DNA of 64,000 nt, from assembly GCF_026020075.1 (NCBI RefSeq), contig NZ_CP102772.1:1922001-1986000 (forward strand), given 5' to 3'. The notes below the pieces were generated by a model that saw only the letters and a program-made list of their open reading frames with translations, had not been told where the DNA came from and made no database searches. The DNA is from Bosea sp. NBC_00550 (GTDB lineage Bacteria; Pseudomonadota; Alphaproteobacteria; Rhizobiales; Beijerinckiaceae). Each line of letters starts with the position of its first letter. Position 1 is the stretch's first letter. Both the position numbers and the translations under genes were made by a program. Shown one piece after another: positions 27,312 to 61,062 of this stretch.

Positions 27312-27440
27312 CGGCATCTCCACAAGGCGCGTCCGCCAGATTGGACGGGCCGGCGTCTCATCGGCAACCCTCAAAACGCAGCAATTCCAAACTGAGCGTG
27401 ACGATCTTCCATAGAACCACGCTGCCGCCCGGCAAAAGGC

Positions 27441-27533
27441 GTCATTCTCGGGCGAAGCGAAGCGCAGACCCGGGAATCCCATGACGAGAAGGCGCTGGTT
27501 TCCGTCATGCTCGGGTCAAGCCCGAGCATGACG
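27441..27533. repeat. Intergenic palindromic repeat, copy 3
   Basis: A 93-bp copy nearly the same as copy 1 (CGTCATTCTCGGGCGAAGCG at the start, CCCGAGCATGACG at the end). The non-coding gap 27312-27626 holds only this repeat and a terminator. Confidence 0.82.
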
Positions 27534-40518: not shown

Positions 40519-41988
40519 TCAGGCCGCCCGCTCCAGCCGAAGCGCCGGAACGCGCGAACCGACGCGATTGAGATCGGCGACGAAGCGGGCATATTCGCGC
40601 CGCTTCGCCTCCTCATCCGGCAGGCGCAGCAGGAAGGACGGGTGCACGGTGGCGACCAACGGCGTGCCGTCGTCCAGGACCAGCTCCCGCTCGCGCGCCT
40701 GGGCGAGAGGGCCGGCATGGCCGGTGAGCGAGCGCAGGGCCGTCGCCCCGAGAGCGACGACAAGCCCGTGCTTGACGAAGCCGCGCTCCAGATCGAGCCA
40801 GAACTTGCAGGCCTTGATCTCGCCGACATTCGGCTTCTCGTGGATGCGGCGCTTGCCGCGCAACTGGAATTTGAAGTGCTTCACCGCATTGGTGACATAG
40901 GCGCGCCGCCGGTCGAGCCCGGCTTCGGCCAGAGCTTGATCGAAGAGCCGCCCAGCCAGCCCGACGAAGGGCCTGCCGGCAAGGTCTTCCTGATCGCCCG
41001 GCTGCTCGCCGACGAAGATCACCGGCGCGTCGAGCGGCCCCTCCCCGAACACGACCTGCGTCGCATGGCAATGAAGCTCGCAGCGGGTGCAGCCTTGCGC
41101 GACTGCCGCCGCATCCTGCCATGACGCGATCGCGGCTTCGTTCGCCGGCTGATCCGCTTGAGACGACCGCCGCTCCTGCCTGATATGTCGCTCCGGAGGT
41201 TCTGTCGGAGTGCGCATCACCATCTCCTCCGCCCGCCGGTTCGCACTGGCGATCAAGGGAGCAATCAGTTCGGCCTCGGGTAGGTTCCGCCAATACTTCA
41301 TCGGCATCTCGGCCCGCATCGCCCTGACCTTCAAACGCGCGGGATTGAAGATGCTGGCGTAGTAGGTGCGCCAGTAATCCTCCATCCGGTCGTCATCGGG
41401 AACCTCGGCTCGCCGGGCCGGTGGACCGTGCAGCAGCGTCTCGCCATCCCAGTGAAGCGAGCCTTGCGGGGTCAGGATCGACCAACACATCGCCGCGAAG
41501 CGCGCGGTGAAGAAGGTGGCGGCGGGCGCCAGGATGAAATGCTCGGGCTCGAACCAGGCGACGAAAGGGCCGTCCTCGCACGCCCCGGCCACCGCCCGGA
41601 AGCGGACGAAAGCCGTCATCTTGTGAAGGTCGCGCCGCACCGAGCGCGCCATCGCCTGCGCCCGGGCGACATCGGCATCGACGCTGTCGTCGAGCAGCGC
41701 CGGCTCCTGCTGCAGGCGCAGCAGCATGCGGTAGAGCAAGGCGAAGCGGCCACCGTCCCGGTGGCAGATCACCGTCTCGGCCAGATCAAGGAAGCGCCTG
41801 GGCACCGTGAGATCGCAAGGCTGCGCCTGCGCCGGTGCCAGCGCATCCCCGGCTCCAAACAGGCCGCCCCCGCCTTCGCCCCAATTCCATTCCACGTCCT
41901 CGGGCGCTGCGCCCGCCTGCGCCAGCCGGCGCGCCTCGGCACGCCAGCCTGCGAAGTCGGCGGGCCCTGAAAGCCGCGCCGCGATCAT
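40519..41988 (-). CDS. UdgX-type uracil-DNA glycosylase with N-terminal DUF4130
   Basis: A 489-residue fusion. The first 260 residues are DUF4130 (RRFLDLAETVICHRDGGRFA, LLYRMLLRLQQEPALL, RMEDYWRTYYASIFNPARLK). The remainder is a family 4-like uracil-DNA glycosylase of the UdgX group: VFVGEQPGDQEDLAGRPFVG-type motif (residue order GEQPGDQEDLAGRPFVGLAG) and the special loop GKRRIHEKPN with His at 383. In mycobacterial UdgX this histidine forms a covalent bond with the uracil-DNA abasic site. Four cysteines (GCTRCELHCHA and others) probably bind an Fe-S cluster. It overlaps the radical SAM gene by four bases. Confidence 0.92.
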   Translation of the reverse strand: MIAARLSGPADFAGWRAEARRLAQAGAAPEDVEWNWGEGGGGLFGAGDALAPAQAQPCDLTVPRRFLDLAETVICHRDGGRFALLYRMLLRLQQEPALLDDSVDADVARAQAMARSVRRDLHKMTAFVRFRAVAGACEDGPFVAWFEPEHFILAPAATFFTARFAAMCWSILTPQGSLHWDGETLLHGPPARRAEVPDDDRMEDYWRTYYASIFNPARLKVRAMRAEMPMKYWRNLPEAELIAPLIASANRRAEEMVMRTPTEPPERHIRQERRSSQADQPANEAAIASWQDAAAVAQGCTRCELHCHATQVVFGEGPLDAPVIFVGEQPGDQEDLAGRPFVGLAGRLFDQALAEAGLDRRRAYVTNAVKHFKFQLRGKRRIHEKPNVGEIKACKFWLDLERGFVKHGLVVALGATALRSLTGHAGPLAQARERELVLDDGTPLVATVHPSFLLRLPDEEAKRREYARFVADLNRVGSRVPALRLERAA

Positions 41989-48879: not shown

Positions 48880-48995
48880 CATATCGCTCCCCAGGGCCGC
48901 CGGGGGAGCGACCGCACCGGAAGAGCAGATGAGGGCAAGATGCCGGCCAGCGCCAGATCGCGGCGGCGTCATCCACCGGAATCAGGGGACGAAAG

Positions 48996-49099
48996 CGTCA
49001 TGCTCGGGCTTGACCCGAGCATCTCGTGCCGAACGAGGCTCCGGCGCCTTCGCGTCCGGAGATTCTCGGGTCGGCGCGATGCGCCGCCCGAGAATGACG
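48996..49099. repeat. Intergenic palindromic repeat, copy 6
   Basis: A 104-bp copy that starts CGTCATGCTCGGGCTTGACC and ends CGCCCGAGAATGACG. It is in the inverted orientation relative to copies 1 and 3. It is located between leuA and the permease. Confidence 0.8.
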
Positions 49100-54365: not shown

Positions 54366-54600
54366 ATCGCTTTCGAAAAGCCGGGTGGATCACTCGCCAT
54401 CGAAGATATGCGCGAGATAACAAGCCCGCACTGCGGCGTTTTTACCGTTCCGTGCCGTTCTCCTGCAAGTCGTTGATCTACGTACGAAATCTGCTTCATC
54501 GTTGTGCGTCATTAATCCTCGTTTGTCTCGTTGTTTTCGATTTTTGCTCCGGTTTCACCGCATCGCCACCGCATGGACCGCATCGGCGCCCCCCGTTTGT

Positions 54601-55824
54601 TCACCCCTCGGAGGCGCTAAGACTGGCGAGCCGATCGCCCATCAGATTTGCCGCCGCCTCGGCCCGTTCGTCCTTCACATGGCCATAAACCTCAAGCGTG
54701 ATCCGCGGGCTCGAATGGCCGAGCCGGTGCGCTACTGTCACGGCGTCGAGCCCGGCCGCGAGGAGATCGGTCGCGCAGGAATGACGCCATGCGTGGCAGG
54801 GCTGGGCGCCTTTAACTTTGGCGCGTCGCATGACGCGCTCCATCAGCTTTGTGATGCGGTCCGGGTGAAACATCTCCCCGCCCAGGGTCGGGAACAACAG
54901 AAGCGGCTCGCGCTGATAGCCCGGCCCCCACTTCAGCCCCTGTTCGAGGATGGTAGCGCGATGCCTCATAAGCCGTGCCATGAAGGCTGGGGGCAGCTTG
55001 ATCCGGCGCAGCGACTTTTGGGTCTTCGCTACTTTGCGCAGCACCGGGACGCGCCCCGGTCCGACGCTGACCGAGCGCGTAATCGCGATCTCGCTGCGCT
55101 CTGTATCGATCTGGTCGAAAGCGAGCGGGGCGAGTTCGCCGCGTCTCATCCCGGTTAGCATTAAGACCGACACCATCAGGTCAATGTGATCGTAAACCTC
55201 GGTTTGGAAATCCGGATCTCCGACGATCGCCAGCAGTCGTCGGATTTCATCGTCGGCGAGATTGCGCGCACCGCTTCGCACAGTGGTGGGCGGCGTCGCA
55301 TCGGCAGCAGGATTGCTGACGAGCCATCGCCATTTCCGGGCCTGCTGTAGCGCCGCATGGGCTGCCGTATGAACGACACGAACGGAGGCTGGGCTGAGTG
55401 ACTTCGTTTCGTGCTTGCCCGGGACCTTCGGCTTGCGCCTGCTCACGCCACCGGTTTTCAGAAGTGTGGCGTAGGCCTTGTCAAGGTCAGCCGCGCTCAA
55501 ACGGCGCAGTTTGATGGAACCGATGATCTTGCCGAGCTTCGTCAAGCTCTGGGCGTAAGTGCGCACGGTCGCTGGCGACTTGCCTTGGCTTTCGAGCACG
55601 TCGATGAAAAGCCTGAAAAACTCCGCGACAGTCCGGTCATCGGGATCACCCGCAACGATACCGGTATGGGCGGTTTCCATCGCAGCAGCATGGAGCTTCG
55701 CGTCGCGTTCCTTTTCAAAGCTCTTGGAGCGTTCGCGCGACTTGCCATCGGCGGCCGTTTCCCGCCAGCCCGCCCTGAAGAACGTCCTGCCGCTGACGCT
55801 GGTCTCCTTCCGAACATAGGCCAT
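54601..55824 (-). CDS. Tyrosine-type site-specific integrase
   Basis: A 407-residue phage-type tyrosine recombinase. A SAM-like core-binding domain spans about residues 70-160 (VAEFFRLFIDVLESQGKSPA, TVRTYAQSLTKLGKIIGS). The catalytic domain has the first Arg in LTGMRRGELAPLAF, the HxxR in HAWRHSCATDLLAAG, GHSS, and the tyrosine nucleophile at Y380 (LEVYGHV). It overlaps the previous gene's stop (TGATG), so the ATG at 55824 is used though the frame is open to 55932. It should integrate and excise the element; the nearest end, beyond 54600, is the likely attachment site. Confidence 0.92.
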   Translation of the reverse strand: MAYVRKETSVSGRTFFRAGWRETAADGKSRERSKSFEKERDAKLHAAAMETAHTGIVAGDPDDRTVAEFFRLFIDVLESQGKSPATVRTYAQSLTKLGKIIGSIKLRRLSAADLDKAYATLLKTGGVSRRKPKVPGKHETKSLSPASVRVVHTAAHAALQQARKWRWLVSNPAADATPPTTVRSGARNLADDEIRRLLAIVGDPDFQTEVYDHIDLMVSVLMLTGMRRGELAPLAFDQIDTERSEIAITRSVSVGPGRVPVLRKVAKTQKSLRRIKLPPAFMARLMRHRATILEQGLKWGPGYQREPLLLFPTLGGEMFHPDRITKLMERVMRRAKVKGAQPCHAWRHSCATDLLAAGLDAVTVAHRLGHSSPRITLEVYGHVKDERAEAAANLMGDRLASLSASEG

Positions 55825-56501
55825 CACGCATTTCCCGCATTCTTGGCCGCAGACCGGCGCTGATACGCGACATGACACCGGCCGGAGCAGAAGCGCGCAT
55901 CGGAACGTTGATGCTCGAAATAGTCGAGGCATTCGATGCAGGCGCGCATGGGTGTTTCGTTTTCGAGGTGATGACCGGCACTTTGGATCATAAAAGCAAA
56001 GAGCACCTTGGCGCGGTTGTGGAACCCGCCCGTGTTAAAGTTCTGCTCGGGTTTGACGTCATTTTCGATCGTGAGATTGCGATCTCGCAGGAAGCATCGG
56101 GCGGATCGAAGGCGATCGCTGTCGCGCGTGATCCGGCTGACGCCGTCCGGCCCGAGCGGTTCCCACGCGCCAGCAGCAGCTCGCAATGCGTCCAGTAATT
56201 CCAGCCAATCCGATGTGCTGGCAGGTTTGTCAGGTGCAAGGCGGTCAAATGGTTCGCCGTGACGGCGACAGAACGATGCGGCCGCCTCTCCGTCCGCGGG
56301 ATCGATGGCCGCGAAGCTTCGCCAGAACGCTGCCGGTGCGTCGGCGGTCCATTCCTGTCCGACCCCGGTTGTTGTGAGGTCAACGACAACCTTCTTGCTT
56401 ACCGGAGCCCAGTCGCGCGCGCTTCTCAGCGTGATCTCGTAAGGCTCCCCGGGCTTGGCCCGGCGAAAGCGACGACCCGTAAATATCAGCCTCGTTCTCA
56501 T
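55824..56501 (-). CDS. Element protein with C-terminal CxxC zinc-ribbon-like motif
   Basis: A 225-residue protein just upstream of the integrase gene, sharing one base with it. The C-terminus has ACIECLDYFEHQRSDARFCS followed by GRCHVAYQRRSAA, a C-x2-C...C-x3-C pattern that probably binds zinc, as seen in CGNR/phage-type proteins. The first 130 residues (KPGEPYEITLRSARDWAPVS, DRLAPDKPASTSDWLELLDAL) resemble nothing I recognise. Coupled translation with the integrase implies a role in integration, excision or its control. Confidence 0.65.
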   Translation of the reverse strand: MRTRLIFTGRRFRRAKPGEPYEITLRSARDWAPVSKKVVVDLTTTGVGQEWTADAPAAFWRSFAAIDPADGEAAASFCRRHGEPFDRLAPDKPASTSDWLELLDALRAAAGAWEPLGPDGVSRITRDSDRLRSARCFLRDRNLTIENDVKPEQNFNTGGFHNRAKVLFAFMIQSAGHHLENETPMRACIECLDYFEHQRSDARFCSGRCHVAYQRRSAAKNAGNA

Positions 56502-56648: not shown

Positions 56649-56972
56649 ATGAACCGCCTTCGCCCGAAGAGACCCGGCTCCGGCTATTCCCCACATGCTT
56701 TTGCCCAGCGCATCCGAAAGTCGGATCGGATCGTCAATAAGATGATTGCGAATGGAGAGGTTCGCGTTGTGAAGCTGGGCGGGATGAAAATCATTCCCGA
56801 CGACGAATTGCCGCGAGTGTGCGGCCTCTTGGGTATCATCCCGCCGCCCGAGCCCGAACCTCTGGGCCACGTCAACCAGCAGATCGAAGGAGAGGCTGCG
56901 CCTCTCGCTTGCCGCCCTCGCGGCAGACCGCGCAAGGTTGTTACGGAAACCGCCCCCTCGCAAAACGGATGA
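56649..56972 (+). CDS. AlpA/excisionase-like DNA-binding protein with AT-hook-like tail
   Basis: A 107-residue protein. The N-terminal half (SGYSPHAFAQRIRKSDRIVN, then KMIANGEVRVVKLGGMKIIP) reads as a winged HTH of the AlpA/MerR type, used in satellites as a transcription activator or excisionase. The C-terminus RPRGRPRKVVTE resembles an AT-hook (GRPRK). GGAGGA lies 4 bases before the ATG. It faces away from the integrase gene across the candidate operator region. AlpA-like proteins in phage satellites switch the island on. Confidence 0.7.
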   Translation: MNRLRPKRPGSGYSPHAFAQRIRKSDRIVNKMIANGEVRVVKLGGMKIIPDDELPRVCGLLGIIPPPEPEPLGHVNQQIEGEAAPLACRPRGRPRKVVTETAPSQNG

Positions 56973-57102
56973 ACCGCCACGGGGCGGTCGAAGCAGCGCC
57001 GCGGCGGGTTGTCAGATTTCGCTTTCCAAGAGTGTGAAATCTAACAAGCGCGCGCATGCCTGTCGATCAGTCCCCGGCATCTCCAAACGGAGGCCAGCGA
57101 CC

Positions 57103-59277
57103 ATGCACGGCAATGGCTATCGCGGCACCGACGAGCCGCTCTCCGCCGTCGAGATCGAGATGTTGGCGGCCGCCAAATTCGGCTGCAAGGTGAACAGCCG
57201 CGGCCGAGACGAACTGCGCCTCGGCAAGAACGACCGCTATTCGGTCGCTACCCGTGGCGAGAAGGCCGGCGTCTGGCACGACTTCCTAACCGACGAGGGC
57301 GGCATCTTCCGGCGCGAGGACGATGACCGGCCGCGCAGCAACGGCCATTCCTTCAAGACACCGCCGCCACGCTCCGGGCGGGCCGAGAATAGCCATGCCG
57401 ATCGTGACGAGCCCGACGCGGATGATGAAGCCAAGCGCGAAGCCGAGCGCCAGCGCAGCCAGAAGATCCTCGGTGACTGCCTGCCGATCAAGGGTTCGAT
57501 CGCCGAGCGCTACCTCGCCTATCGCGAGATCCCATGCCCGCAGAGCGGCGTCTGGTTTCACCCCGCCCTGTCCCCGCATCGGGATCTGCCAAAATGGCCC
57601 GCACTGGTCGCCCAGCCGCGCTACGGCGACGGCAAGCCGACGCCTGGGCACCATGTGATCTATTTGGCCGAGGATGGCGCCCGCAAACGCGACGACATGG
57701 GCAAAAAGTCAAAACTGTCCTGGGGTGAGATCAAGGGCGGTGCGGTCCAGCTTTCGCCGATGACCGAGTACGGCCATCTCGGCTACGCCGAGGGCATCGA
57801 GACCGCGCTCTCGGCGCAGGCCATCTTCGGCGTTCCGGTCTGGGCCATGCTCGGCACGAGCAGCGACCTGCCTATGCCGCCTGGGCTCAAGCGCGCCACC
57901 GTCTTCGCCGACGCCGGCCAGGGCGGTGAGGAGGCCGCGCGTAAGCGGGCCGAGCGGCTGGTCGAGGCCGGCGTCATCGTCGAGATCCGCCGACCGCTCG
58001 GCGACGACGACTTCAACACCGACCTGATGAAGAATCCCGGCCTCACCGCCGCGGACTATCCCGAGACCGAGCCCATCAACGAACCCGACGCCGACCTGCC
58101 GCTTCGCCCTTCGGTCCCCGGCGACGAGGCAGGCATCCCCCAGCGCCGCTGGCTGATCCCCGGTCTGGCGCTGCCCGGCCAGGTCAGCCTGATCGGTGGC
58201 GCGGCCGGGGCCGGGAAGTCGATGTTCGCGGTGCATCTGTCGCTCGCAGCCGCGGCCGGCGTCGACTGGGGCGGCTGGCGCCTGCCGCGGCCCTTCAAGG
58301 TGCTGACCGTCAACCTCGAAGAGGACGACGACGAGATGGACCGGCGCTTCTGCGCGGTTCGGCGAAGCATGGACCTGATCGGCACCGATCTCAGCCCGGC
58401 GGTCTCGGTCAGGCGCCTGGCCGACCTGGTCGTGGCGCGGTTCGACCCGAAGAAGAGGACGGTGATCGAGACCCCACGCGTCGATGAGATCATCCGGTCG
58501 ATCCGCCATCACGGCTTCGACATGGTCATCATCGACCCGCTCGGCGAGACCTTCGACGGCGAGGAAAACTCCAACGACCAGATGAAGCGCATCGTCGGGA
58601 TCTGGCGCCGCATCGCCCGCGAGACCGGAGCCGCCGTGGTGCTCGTCCCGCATGCGGGCAAGAACCGCAACGGCGATTCCGGCAACGCCGACATGGTGCG
58701 CGGCGCCTCCGCCATGATCGGCGTGGCGCGCTGCGTCGTCACGATCGCCCCGATGGCGCCCGACGAGGCGGTCAAGCTCGGCCTGCCCGAGGCCGACGCG
58801 CGGCGCTATGTCAGGATCGACGATGCCAAGATGAATTACAGCCTGCCCTCGGCCGAGGCGCGCTGGTTTCGCCGCGAGGGCATCACGCTCGCCAACGGTC
58901 CAGCCGGCTCCGACGGCGACGAGGTCGGCGTGCTCGAACCCTGGGATCCGCATGCTGCCTTTACCGAGGTCTCGCCGGCTGCCGTTCGGGGCGCTCTCGA
59001 CAAGATCGAGGCTGGCATCCTCGACAAGGACGGCCGGCCGACCGGAGCGCTCTGGACCCCCCACAACAACAGCGGGGACAAATCGCGCTGGGTCGGCACG
59101 CTGTTCATGCGCGAGTTCGGCTGCCCGGAAGCGCAGGCCAAGCGGCTGATCAGCGACATGCTCGACAGCGGATTACTGGTCGCAACCGAGTATTCAGACC
59201 GGCACCGGAAGAAGCGCGTCGGGCTCAAAATCAACCTGACAAAATGGCCGGGTTCGAGGTGCGACGATGGCACCTAA
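57103..59277 (+). CDS. Primase-helicase of RepA/Toprim type
   Basis: A 724-residue replication protein. The first 130 residues look like a phage primase zinc/DNA-binding part (GKNDRYSVATRGEKAGVWHD, FLTDEGGIFRRED). Next is a Toprim-like domain (about 200-330: GYAEGIETALSAQAIFGVPV, and FADAGQGGEEAARKRAERLV with an Asp). The C-terminal half is a RepA-like hexameric helicase with Walker A IGGAAGAGKSMFAVHLSL and Walker B VIIDPLGETFDGEENSND. GGAGG lies 9 bases before ATG 57103. It should initiate and prime element replication. The repeat array that begins 20 bases after the stop is the probable origin. Confidence 0.85.
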   Translation: MHGNGYRGTDEPLSAVEIEMLAAAKFGCKVNSRGRDELRLGKNDRYSVATRGEKAGVWHDFLTDEGGIFRREDDDRPRSNGHSFKTPPPRSGRAENSHADRDEPDADDEAKREAERQRSQKILGDCLPIKGSIAERYLAYREIPCPQSGVWFHPALSPHRDLPKWPALVAQPRYGDGKPTPGHHVIYLAEDGARKRDDMGKKSKLSWGEIKGGAVQLSPMTEYGHLGYAEGIETALSAQAIFGVPVWAMLGTSSDLPMPPGLKRATVFADAGQGGEEAARKRAERLVEAGVIVEIRRPLGDDDFNTDLMKNPGLTAADYPETEPINEPDADLPLRPSVPGDEAGIPQRRWLIPGLALPGQVSLIGGAAGAGKSMFAVHLSLAAAAGVDWGGWRLPRPFKVLTVNLEEDDDEMDRRFCAVRRSMDLIGTDLSPAVSVRRLADLVVARFDPKKRTVIETPRVDEIIRSIRHHGFDMVIIDPLGETFDGEENSNDQMKRIVGIWRRIARETGAAVVLVPHAGKNRNGDSGNADMVRGASAMIGVARCVVTIAPMAPDEAVKLGLPEADARRYVRIDDAKMNYSLPSAEARWFRREGITLANGPAGSDGDEVGVLEPWDPHAAFTEVSPAAVRGALDKIEAGILDKDGRPTGALWTPHNNSGDKSRWVGTLFMREFGCPEAQAKRLISDMLDSGLLVATEYSDRHRKKRVGLKINLTKWPGSRCDDGT

Positions 59278-59296
59278 ACCCGACAGAATGTCCCTC

Positions 59297-59465
59297 TGCG
59301 CCGGTTCAAATCATCAACCGGCGCAGACCGGCGCAACCGGCGCAAAAATGCCTGCGCCGGTCCCATTTTTGCCAGAGCTAAAGCTCTGGTGGGGCAACCG
59401 GCGCAAAAGCTGCGCCGGTCGCTTGCCCGGCTGTCGCCGGCAGCGACTGCTTTGCCCCACCAGAG
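59297..59465. repeat. Iteron-like array and nested hairpins (candidate replication origin)
   Basis: Seven perfect copies of the 9-mer ACCGGCGCA or its complement lie at 59297, 59317, 59327, 59336, 59353, 59397 and 59411; three (59317, 59327, 59336) are direct repeats spaced by about one helical turn. Opposed copies form stems across 8 and 5 bases. An 8-bp hairpin (CCAGAGCT AA AGCTCTGG, 59372-59389) competes with a 14-bp arm (59384-59397) that pairs with 59452-59465. Lying directly after the primase-helicase, this looks like a replicator iteron region. Confidence 0.7.
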
Positions 59466-59508
59466 CGTCAGCCCAGCCCTGGCAAAACGCGCGACCGGCT
59501 CGCCTGCC

Positions 59509-59952
59509 ATGAGCACCGCCCTCGCCACCCTGCAGGCAGCACGCTCGGCCGGGATCGAGATCGAGGCAGACGGATCACGGCTGCGCCTGCGATCAGCCAT
59601 CCCGCCCTCCCGCATCCTGCTCGGAGCACTGCGCCAGAACGAGCCCGAGATCATCGAAATGCTGACGCCCGGCGAGGATGGCCGATCGCCCGAGGACTGG
59701 GCCTGCCGCTTCGACGAGATCGCCGGCCAGCGCGAATACGAGGACCACATGCCCCGGCCCGAGGCCGAAGCCTGCGCCCGGCAGTGCTGCATCACCGAAT
59801 GGCTGGCCTGCCACCCCGGCCGGTCCACCACCGAGGCCGAAGACGTCTTCGCCCGCATCGGGATGACGACGCGCAACTTATTGCGTCCGGCGCTGGCCAC
59901 GCCCGACGACCAACCGAACCGGCCCGGCCAGCCAATCAGGAGAGCGTCATGA
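59509..59952 (+). CDS. TubC N-terminal-docking-domain-like protein
   Basis: A 147-residue protein whose first 55 residues (ALATLQAARSAGIEIEADGS, RLRLRSAIPPSRILLGALRQ, EPEIIEMLTPG) resemble a TubC_N docking domain. In nonribosomal peptide systems this domain joins subunits, but phage-like elements encode free copies with unknown roles. The remainder has several cysteines and an acidic run (EAEACARQCCITEWLACHPG). The frame is open to 59389, but that part crosses the iteron array, so the ATG at 59509 is preferred. It overlaps the next gene by four bases. Confidence 0.65.
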   Translation: MSTALATLQAARSAGIEIEADGSRLRLRSAIPPSRILLGALRQNEPEIIEMLTPGEDGRSPEDWACRFDEIAGQREYEDHMPRPEAEACARQCCITEWLACHPGRSTTEAEDVFARIGMTTRNLLRPALATPDDQPNRPGQPIRRAS

Positions 59953-60399: not shown

Positions 60400-60570
60400 C
60401 GGATGGAGCCGAGGCCGGGGGGAGGTCTGCAAGCCCGGCCGGGGCCTCCGGGAACCGACCCGTAGCCCCGCGCTTGCGGCGGCCCGAAATTCAACGAATT
60501 TTGAAGTACAATAATCGAGATTGTGTCCATTCTCTCCGCGCAGATACTTGCCACGTTCGGAGCACCGCCG

Positions 60571-61062
60571 ATGCCAGCAGGACGCCCGCCGAAGCCGCGT
60601 CGCGTCCGCGAGTTAGAGGGCCGGCGCGGGCATCGACCTATCCCGAACAGCGTCGAGAGCTGTGGCCGGCCACTGATGCCCGATTATCTCGACGACGAGC
60701 AGCGGGGCTTGTGGAAACAGATCGAGGCCGGCATGCCACCCGGCCTGCTCACTTTGGCCGACAGCCAAGCGGTCGAAAGGATGTGCGTCGCGTGGGCGAG
60801 GTTCCGCGAATGCCAGCGCAAGATCGGGGCGTTGACGATGTTCAGCAGAGGCTCAACCGGCCAGTTGGCGATGTCGCCCTTGGTCCGAATCCAGAACCTC
60901 GCGTCGAAGGAGATGCATCTTGCCGGCGAGGCACTCGGATTGAGCCCGGTCGCGCGCGCCCGGATCAGCGCGCCCGAGAACGTCGACAATGATCCCCTGG
61001 CGCTGTTGCTCGACGGCCAAGTTTATCGCCCGGCCGTGCCACGGAAGTCGAGGGCCAACTGA
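60571..61062 (+). CDS. Phage terminase small subunit, P27 family
   Basis: A 163-residue P27-type small terminase. The start PAGRPPKPRRVRELEGRRGH with RPIPN is the usual N-terminus of the family, and PDYLDDEQRGLWKQIEAGMP, LTLADSQAVERMCVAWARFR and NLASKEMHLAGEALGLSPVA follow. GGAG lies about 9 bases before the ATG at 60571. No large terminase gene follows, so it either serves as a packaging-specificity protein for a helper phage or is a leftover of a prophage. Confidence 0.88.
   Translation: MPAGRPPKPRRVRELEGRRGHRPIPNSVESCGRPLMPDYLDDEQRGLWKQIEAGMPPGLLTLADSQAVERMCVAWARFRECQRKIGALTMFSRGSTGQLAMSPLVRIQNLASKEMHLAGEALGLSPVARARISAPENVDNDPLALLLDGQVYRPAVPRKSRAN

Follow-up and report, generated by a model that had tools for sequence, protein, structure and literature searches.

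Known initiators and the locus under study

Beyond a handful of model groups, the replication origins of most prophages and satellites are not known to have been described. Among the closest described systems, the available sections of one report present SaPI Rep and SCCmec Cch2 as self-loading helicases that recognise, through their C-terminal domains, iterons lying immediately behind their genes, and group Cch2 with the D5-type helicases (PMC7581432). Gram-negative phage-inducible chromosomal islands (PICIs) carry, according to the part of their description at hand, int, pri-rep and, directly 3′ of the latter, an origin with two sets of iterons, accompanied at times by terS (PMC6092414). In the accessible portion of a further source, a separate protein of plasmid RSF1010, RepC, reads the iterons and RepB′ primes at ssiA and ssiB, while the archaeal plasmid pRN1 combines a primase-helicase ending in a C-terminal winged helix with an essential stem-loop just 3′ of its gene, in which shape is conserved over sequence; its primase is archaeo-eukaryotic, its helicase belongs to superfamily 3 (SF3), and that portion describes no iteron structure (PMC4234260). 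Here we analysed a 64,000-nucleotide stretch of Bosea sp. NBC_00550 (NZ_CP102772.1, positions 1,922,001 to 1,986,000; hereafter the window, whose own positions are used below), in which an array of 9-mer iterons directly follows a primase-helicase gene. The array belongs to a family in which the iteron word covaries with the tip of the encoded protein, and on this sequence evidence we consider it, with a probability of roughly 0.8, to be the origin from which a mobile element replicates, its iterons being the sites that the upstream-encoded primase-helicase would bind.

The iteron array and the primase-helicase

The 9-mer ACCGGCGCA occurs in seven exact copies within 123 bases, the first of them 20 nt past the stop codon of the primase-helicase gene, and their orientations run - + + + - + - along the array (59297–59305, 59317–59325, 59327–59335, 59336–59344, 59353–59361, 59397–59405 and 59411–59419). 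Together with two copies of a variant, GGTGGGGCA, at 59388–59396 (+) and 59453–59461 (-), they form an iteron array spanning 59297–59461. A first-pass annotation made from the letters alone had reported seven perfect copies, three of them at about one-helical-turn spacing, at a density above chance, and all of this was borne out: the three neighbouring plus-strand copies (59317, 59327 and 59336) are spaced 10 and 9 bases start to start, the eight copies in the whole window were reached by 0 of 100 shuffles (shuffle mean 1.61), and the only 9-mers with at least four copies inside 200 bases of the 64-kb window were those of this array. The eighth copy stands isolated at 41828, outside the array. 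Across the 6.27-Mb genome there are 162 copies of ACCGGCGCA versus 125 of the same word reversed, so that the word itself is common and only its density is special; among the 100 of the 162 places that were listed, no other clustering was seen.

Folded as DNA, the array reached -78.3 kcal/mol (z -10.2), and 0 of 200 shuffles were as stable. The same annotation had described 14-bp outer arms competing with an inner 8-bp hairpin, which needs correction. The arms are 15 bp long (59383–59397 and 59452–59466), each containing one GGTGGGGCA, and the inner hairpin is 9 bp long (59397–59405 and 59411–59419), with iterons 6 and 7 as its left and right arms; since the two structures are nested and have one base in common, they hardly compete, and both are included in the minimum-energy fold. 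The actual competitor is GCTCTGG (59383–59389), which pairs either with 59460–59466 or, across a TAAA loop, with CCAGAGC (59372–59378) to give a central 7-bp hairpin (CCAGAGC-TAAA-GCTCTGG, 59372–59389; row of locus L007). Near the gene, iterons 1 and 2 lie in the two halves of a 12-bp inverted repeat (59295–59306 and 59316–59327).

The gene itself (56938–59277, plus strand) encodes a protein of 779 residues with DUF7146, Toprim_3 and AAA_25 domains followed by a C-terminal winged-helix-like domain. Pfam and a match to PDB 1g8y (1.2e-32) agree with the earlier statement that the array directly follows a RepA/Toprim protein, the AAA_25 region being a RecA-fold helicase domain homologous to RSF1010 RepA. 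An AlphaFold model of residues 375–779 had a predicted local distance difference test (pLDDT) score of 90.3. In a second model, with pLDDT 87.3, the C-terminal domain (residues 670–779; 58945–59274, plus strand) is predicted to consist of helices and then a two-stranded wing, and both models place the segment DRHRKKR (residues 754–760; 59197–59217, plus strand) as the loop joining the two strands. Searched alone with Foldseek, the C-terminal domain gave weak matches (best E 0.017) to winged-helix proteins, headed by plasmid initiators that we take to be of the RepA_N type.

A family of arrays behind related genes

Relatives were collected from genomes, IMG/VR and plasmids, in a sample spanning the window's genus up to its class together with viral contigs, and the 363 gene matches, read on both strands, left 246 distinct downstream regions once 111 duplicates and 6 regions cut short had been removed. 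With an array called at a repeated-9-mer score of at least 3.5, an array directly followed 160 of the 246 distinct genes, compared with 2 of 738 control intervals taken inside the same genes. The aligned set comprises 134 of these arrays; the other 26, the array of plasmid pVL1_6 included, had an iteron fit below 8 or were unalignable. Iteron orientation and offset were set by the fit to a form such as [AG]nTGnnGCA, which in part builds in the constancy of bases 3, 4 and 7–9; it leaves bases 5 and 6 free, and bases 1 and 2 nearly so.

The 134 aligned arrays use 54 different words, and the first relatives from the same genus already showed other words (ACTGGCGCA, ACTGGAGCA, AATGGCGCA and GGTGGGGCA) in a similar layout. 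The idea that the array would be conserved in related elements therefore holds for the layout and for the presence of an element-specific 9-mer, and not for one shared sequence. In 116 of 154 cases the array score was above all 20 shuffles of the same sequence; this count was made on a one-strand set (minus-strand loci left out), which also underlies the typical layout, the spacer hairpins, the counts of words elsewhere, the GC skew, the mutual information, the first 37 sister pairs and the 22-locus hold-out reported below. Frequently, an inverted copy lies about 5 nt past the stop codon, two or three direct copies follow 20, 30 and 40 nt on, another inverted copy sits near 72, and then come a hairpin and further copies near 110–150. 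The first copy was at most 30 nt from the stop codon in 122 of the 134 aligned arrays, 113 had a same-strand copy pair 8–12 bp apart and 98 an inverted copy pair 14–26 apart; random placement gives 63% for either kind of pair, and these layout controls are thus modest. A stem of at least 6 was present in 30 of 50 spacers between copy groups, with varying arm sequences and loops such as TAAA, TTTA and CGTA, and the central hairpin of the window, with its TAAA loop, belongs to this kind.

The words are also largely confined to the arrays, with 400 copies inside them versus 28 elsewhere across 936 kb (10 for a reversed-word control), and four of these 28 belong to one array beyond the interval used. 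Arrays found farther downstream of their genes share an internal layout within their group. Single-protein scans for close relatives recovered two genome-contig loci, by the toprim part only, and nothing on viral contigs, so that alignment searches were needed. Named phages gave distant matches only, and in one of them, Rhizobium phage RHph_X2_26, the gene is not followed by an array. The Bartonella run-off replication origin was considered as a relative and set aside, as the corresponding locus (L005) shares the toprim part alone and the published module is lambda-like in the part of its description available. No publication on this array family was recognised in the open-licence literature searched.

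Covariation between the iteron word and the protein tip

Using the residue numbering of one relative (L088), in which 387, 436 and 437 correspond to R700, R757 and K758 of the window protein, we found that the strongest mutual information signals in 95 cases lay mostly in the last 65 residues. Across the 134 aligned arrays, arginine at residue 387 accompanied A at base 1 (39 of 40 cases) and glutamine accompanied G (72 of 84), glutamine being the counterpart of GG over bases 1–2; where residue 436 was arginine, base 8 was C (117 of 117), as compared with 6 of 17 for other residues; and at 437, lysine or histidine went with C at base 6 (43 of 49), arginine with A (15 of 19) and methionine, asparagine, glutamate or aspartate with G (43 of 51). 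The window obeys this code, with R700 (codon 59035–59037, plus strand; an insertion is adjacent in the alignment) accompanying AC at bases 1–2, and R757 and K758, both in the modelled wing loop, accompanying C at base 8 and C at base 6, respectively.

Given the kinship among the relatives, the covariation was checked in four ways. On 22 later loci held out at less than 95% identity to the training set, residue 437 gave base 6 correctly in 19 (majority base 5, nearest neighbour 11) and residue 387 gave base 1 in 20 (majority 7, nearest neighbour 18). When training was restricted to sequences less than 60% identical, residue 437 predicted base 6 correctly in 106 of 134 arrays (37 by the majority base, 28 by the nearest neighbour), and residue 387 predicted base 1 in 113 (77 and 89) and base 2 in 114 (81 and 79); these residues were the best of all helicase columns for those bases. 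In 57 disjoint sister pairs (3312 tests), the top association was that of residue 436 with base 8 (p 4.5e-7), followed by residue 387 with base 2 (4.0e-6), and both pass Bonferroni correction. Finally, a code-blind search of the whole locus around 68 array-negative genes with readable residues found clusters of at least five copies in 17 (2 in the backwards control), lying anywhere between 51 bases upstream and 2.3 kb downstream of the recorded end of the gene; every one conforms to the code at bases 1, 6 and 8, the 17 representing about seven related groups and not independent cases. A code-guided search, its patterns composed after the residue and base tables had been viewed, found at least three copies in 21 of 62 loci and in none of the backwards controls.

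Other statistics added no support. Product-corrected mutual information over 45 representatives had a maximum of 5.8 versus shuffled maxima of 4.4 to 9.0, none of the tests on the first 37 sister pairs passed full correction, and six contact columns matched the iteron change in 31 of these 37 pairs, as compared with an average of 29.1 for random matched columns, 10.7% of such sets doing equally well. Taken as a whole, the covariation connects the array with the primase-helicase that precedes it.

Concerted switches between close relatives

Two pairs of relatives capture changes of the word. The proteins of L107 and L110 are 96% identical over 380 aligned residues and differ in the wing (QRRPR to KSRVR, with R436 replaced by serine), and the nine copies in each array have all switched from ACTGGAGCA to ACTGGAGAA (GCA to GAA). 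Likewise, L116 and L125, 98% identical over 380 aligned residues, differ by QRRLR to SRHMR (R437 to histidine), with all nine copies changed from ACTGGAGCA to ACTGTCGCA (GGAG to GTCG). Within this switch group the array layout stays constant while the word changes, and the changed residues map to the modelled wing loop.

The window genome holds two further such genes (L389 and L388, near 31340 and 2078900 of its contig C1), followed by arrays of GGTGCTGGA and GGTGCGGGA, so that three elements with three different words occur in one genome. Neither of the further proteins has arginine at 436, and neither word has C at base 8; the GGTGCGGGA element has alanine at 387, a residue without a rule. 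Each of these two elements also carries a 409-residue integrase, the first 30 residues being identical between the two while the iteron words differ.

A probable origin and its alternatives

We propose that the winged-helix C-terminus of the helicase subunits binds the 9-mers, as the covariation strongly suggests, and that subunits bound in opposite orientations on either side of the central hairpin would assemble ring helicases there. The hairpin region may open or extrude and so serve as the loading or priming site, after which, judging from the protein families, the RepA-like helicase would unwind and the Toprim domain would prime. The 9-mer and the wing change together by lineage, which may prevent neighbouring elements from using each other's origin. 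The earlier suggestion of a candidate new replicator thus gains support from conservation and covariation, origin function being the probable interpretation, but the locus is a member of a family and not a one-off.

Several observations weigh against this interpretation. No adjacent array was found at 86 of the 246 genes, and the array-negative loci mostly had no array in the available locus DNA, more distant arrays turning up in only the 17 of 68 (at least five copies) and 21 of 62 (at least three) given above; one clade of viral contigs (L267–L294) has the wing motif and no array in the locus DNA searched. The arrays show no general AT-rich stretch (mean percentile 0.58; 21 of 133 above 0.9) and, in 25 loci, no clean GC-skew switch, and the spacer hairpin was significant in just 30 of 50. 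In the leave-relatives-out test, prediction of bases 3, 4, 5, 7, 8 and 9 hardly improved, if at all, on the majority base, and the best column for base 8 was 243 and not 436. Among the sister pairs, rank 3 was taken by residue 370, which is not a code residue, with base 6 (1.5e-5, borderline), and residue 437 with base 6 came fourth (3.5e-5), failing Bonferroni correction. The GGTGCTGGA element violates the base-6 rule, having glutamate at 437 with T, and one of four plasmids with the array additionally has repB/repC. Our confidence is slightly lowered by the E437/T misfit and the base-8 result.

An alternative that we regard as unlikely is that the same protein binds the array to control the element's expression, copy number or partition instead of starting replication. 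By eye, a start codon lies a few bases beyond the last array copy in four loci (L008, L012, L088 and L130), which speaks for such control, but several phased sites in both orientations exceed, in our judgement, what one promoter needs, no sigma-70-like site was found in 59200–59600, and even the more distal arrays retain their group-wide internal layout. Control and origin roles can also coexist. Still less probable is an RNA element, in which mRNA hairpins terminate transcription or control translation: the fold is very stable (the z score above being calculated for DNA) and one hairpin, at 59336–59361, is terminator-like (0.7 expected by chance), yet a base of the word follows a residue of the protein wing, the 8–12 bp spacing of same-strand copies is more frequent than under random placement, and every Rfam family stayed below its gathering score, the closest being mir-610 with 25.5 of 90 bits (E 0.0049). 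We give marginally less credence again to a packaging or recombination site read, for example, by a terminase small subunit, whose gene lies 1.1 kb downstream here and has a counterpart in a related element of genome G038; against it, the best predictors of bases 1, 2 and 6 among the helicase columns lie at the C-terminus, and two plasmids with arrays (NZ_CP102848 and NZ_AP024151) list no terminase in their incomplete gene tables. GC-rich palindromic repeats are common in bacteria, but chance or selfish repeats of the repetitive extragenic palindromic type, unconnected with the gene, are hardly credible in view of the 2 of 738 control intervals, the 400 versus 28 word counts and the covariation with the protein.

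Returning to the origin interpretation, we think it likely that these loci represent a class of phage, satellite and plasmid replicators whose primase-helicase, of the RSF1010-RepA type, is loaded by its own action onto iterons immediately behind the gene that encodes it. A small number of residues in the wing and arm would then form a readable code that makes origins predictable from the protein, with the wing and all 6–10 iterons switching in concert, probably against cross-use by co-resident elements. If this is true, the rule lets the protein alone indicate where the origin lies in a widespread family of elements, and suggests a route by which related elements coexist in one cell. It would also provide a naturally occurring set of cases in which a single protein loop changes along with as many as ten DNA sites, and hence a handle on the coevolution of initiators and origins.

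Islands, proviruses and plasmids carrying the module

The window array sits in a 33.7-kb insertion bounded by the 19-bp direct repeat CGAAGATATGCGCGAGATA, the window ending inside this island. The left attachment site (attL) is at 54401–54419 (plus strand); its last base, 54419, is where homology ends in six of the nine flank loci from other genomes, and the right flank of one such locus maps to C1:2010101, where an exact second copy (attR, C1:2010101–2010119) lies beyond the window. A direct-repeat search for att sites inside the window accordingly found none, because attR is outside it, and no extra copy of CGAAGATATGCGCGAGATA with up to 3 mismatches was present in the window or in locus L383. 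The left 6.6 kb of the island hold a tyrosine integrase (54601–55932, minus strand; Pfam Phage_integrase 9.6e-18, phrog_1 3e-55), the primase-helicase, the array and a terminase small subunit (60523–61062, plus strand; Pfam Terminase_4 6e-15, phrog_83 8.6e-31), and the rest looks like a polysaccharide cluster, judged from the starts of its open reading frames (ORFs), which were listed for the right 24 kb. A small ORF at 56652–56972 had a sub-threshold AT_hook in Pfam only, no PHROG match and no AlpA match. The island resembles a satellite in having an integrase, att repeats of 19 bp and a small subunit of terminase.

The related element of genome G038 (L385 1675–12576, contig C9) spans 10.9 kb between two such att repeats and encodes an integrase, a 330-residue helicase frame followed by a AATGGCGCA array, a terminase small subunit and GtrB-like (O-antigen conversion) cargo; none of the 10 enclosed ORFs, all of them scanned, had a structural match (ORFs across the att copies were outside the scan). 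This element thus appears to have a good part of the genes that make up a PICI-like satellite. The same module is found on a 53.5-kb IMG/VR provirus (L146), with an array identical to that of L012, and four complete plasmids bear the gene and the array, all named hosts being Alphaproteobacteria; one of these plasmids also has capsid, portal and terminase genes. Plasmids NZ_CP102848 and NZ_AP024151 encode a ParA-like ATPase, and the helicase is their sole known initiator by listed names and Pfam on 10 of 49 and 10 of 39 proteins, respectively; with gene tables incomplete and many proteins unassigned, this pattern is suggestive only.

Separately, a dispersed repeat of about 80–100 bp occurs at 410–502, 27440–27533 and 48895–49099 of the window and in two other genomes of the same genus (blastn; L376 and L370).

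Comparison with known replication systems

Like pRN1, the locus has a predicted C-terminal winged helix on a primase-helicase and a hairpin downstream of the gene, but where pRN1 combines an archaeo-eukaryotic primase and an SF3 helicase with no iterons, here a Toprim domain, a RecA-fold helicase and iterons are found. The alpha protein of P4 is likewise an SF3 helicase. In a P4-type replicon the Toprim primase is shared, according to the available part of the source (PMC4234260), the helicase here being RecA-fold AAA_25 instead. With RSF1010 (IncQ) the common element is the RepA hexameric helicase family, to which the domain here appears homologous by sequence; the difference is that a single protein here would be primase, helicase and probable iteron reader, and none of nine ORFs around the array had a RepC-type Pfam match, in scans not aimed at RepC.

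By their description, Gram-negative PICIs have the same order of parts, and the window island also has an integrase, its own att repeats and terS. In contrast to PICIs, the iteron sets here flank a hairpin and not a generally AT-rich region, and proviruses and plasmids carry the module as well; no AlpA match came up in the ORFs scanned. The closest parallel in operation is with SaPI Rep and Cch2, in which iterons lie directly downstream of the helicase gene, as they do here, and are read by the C-terminus, a mode that the covariation strongly supports for our family. D5-type helicases such as Cch2 have the AAA+ fold, whereas the helicase here is RecA-fold, of the RSF1010 RepA type, a distinction drawn from family matches and descriptions; its Toprim primase is either fused to it or adjacent, and its 9-mer iterons are of many kinds, mostly GC-rich. 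Because the helicase family differs, the window system is not one of them; overall, our analysis suggests that it works like SaPI Rep and Cch2 without belonging to them.
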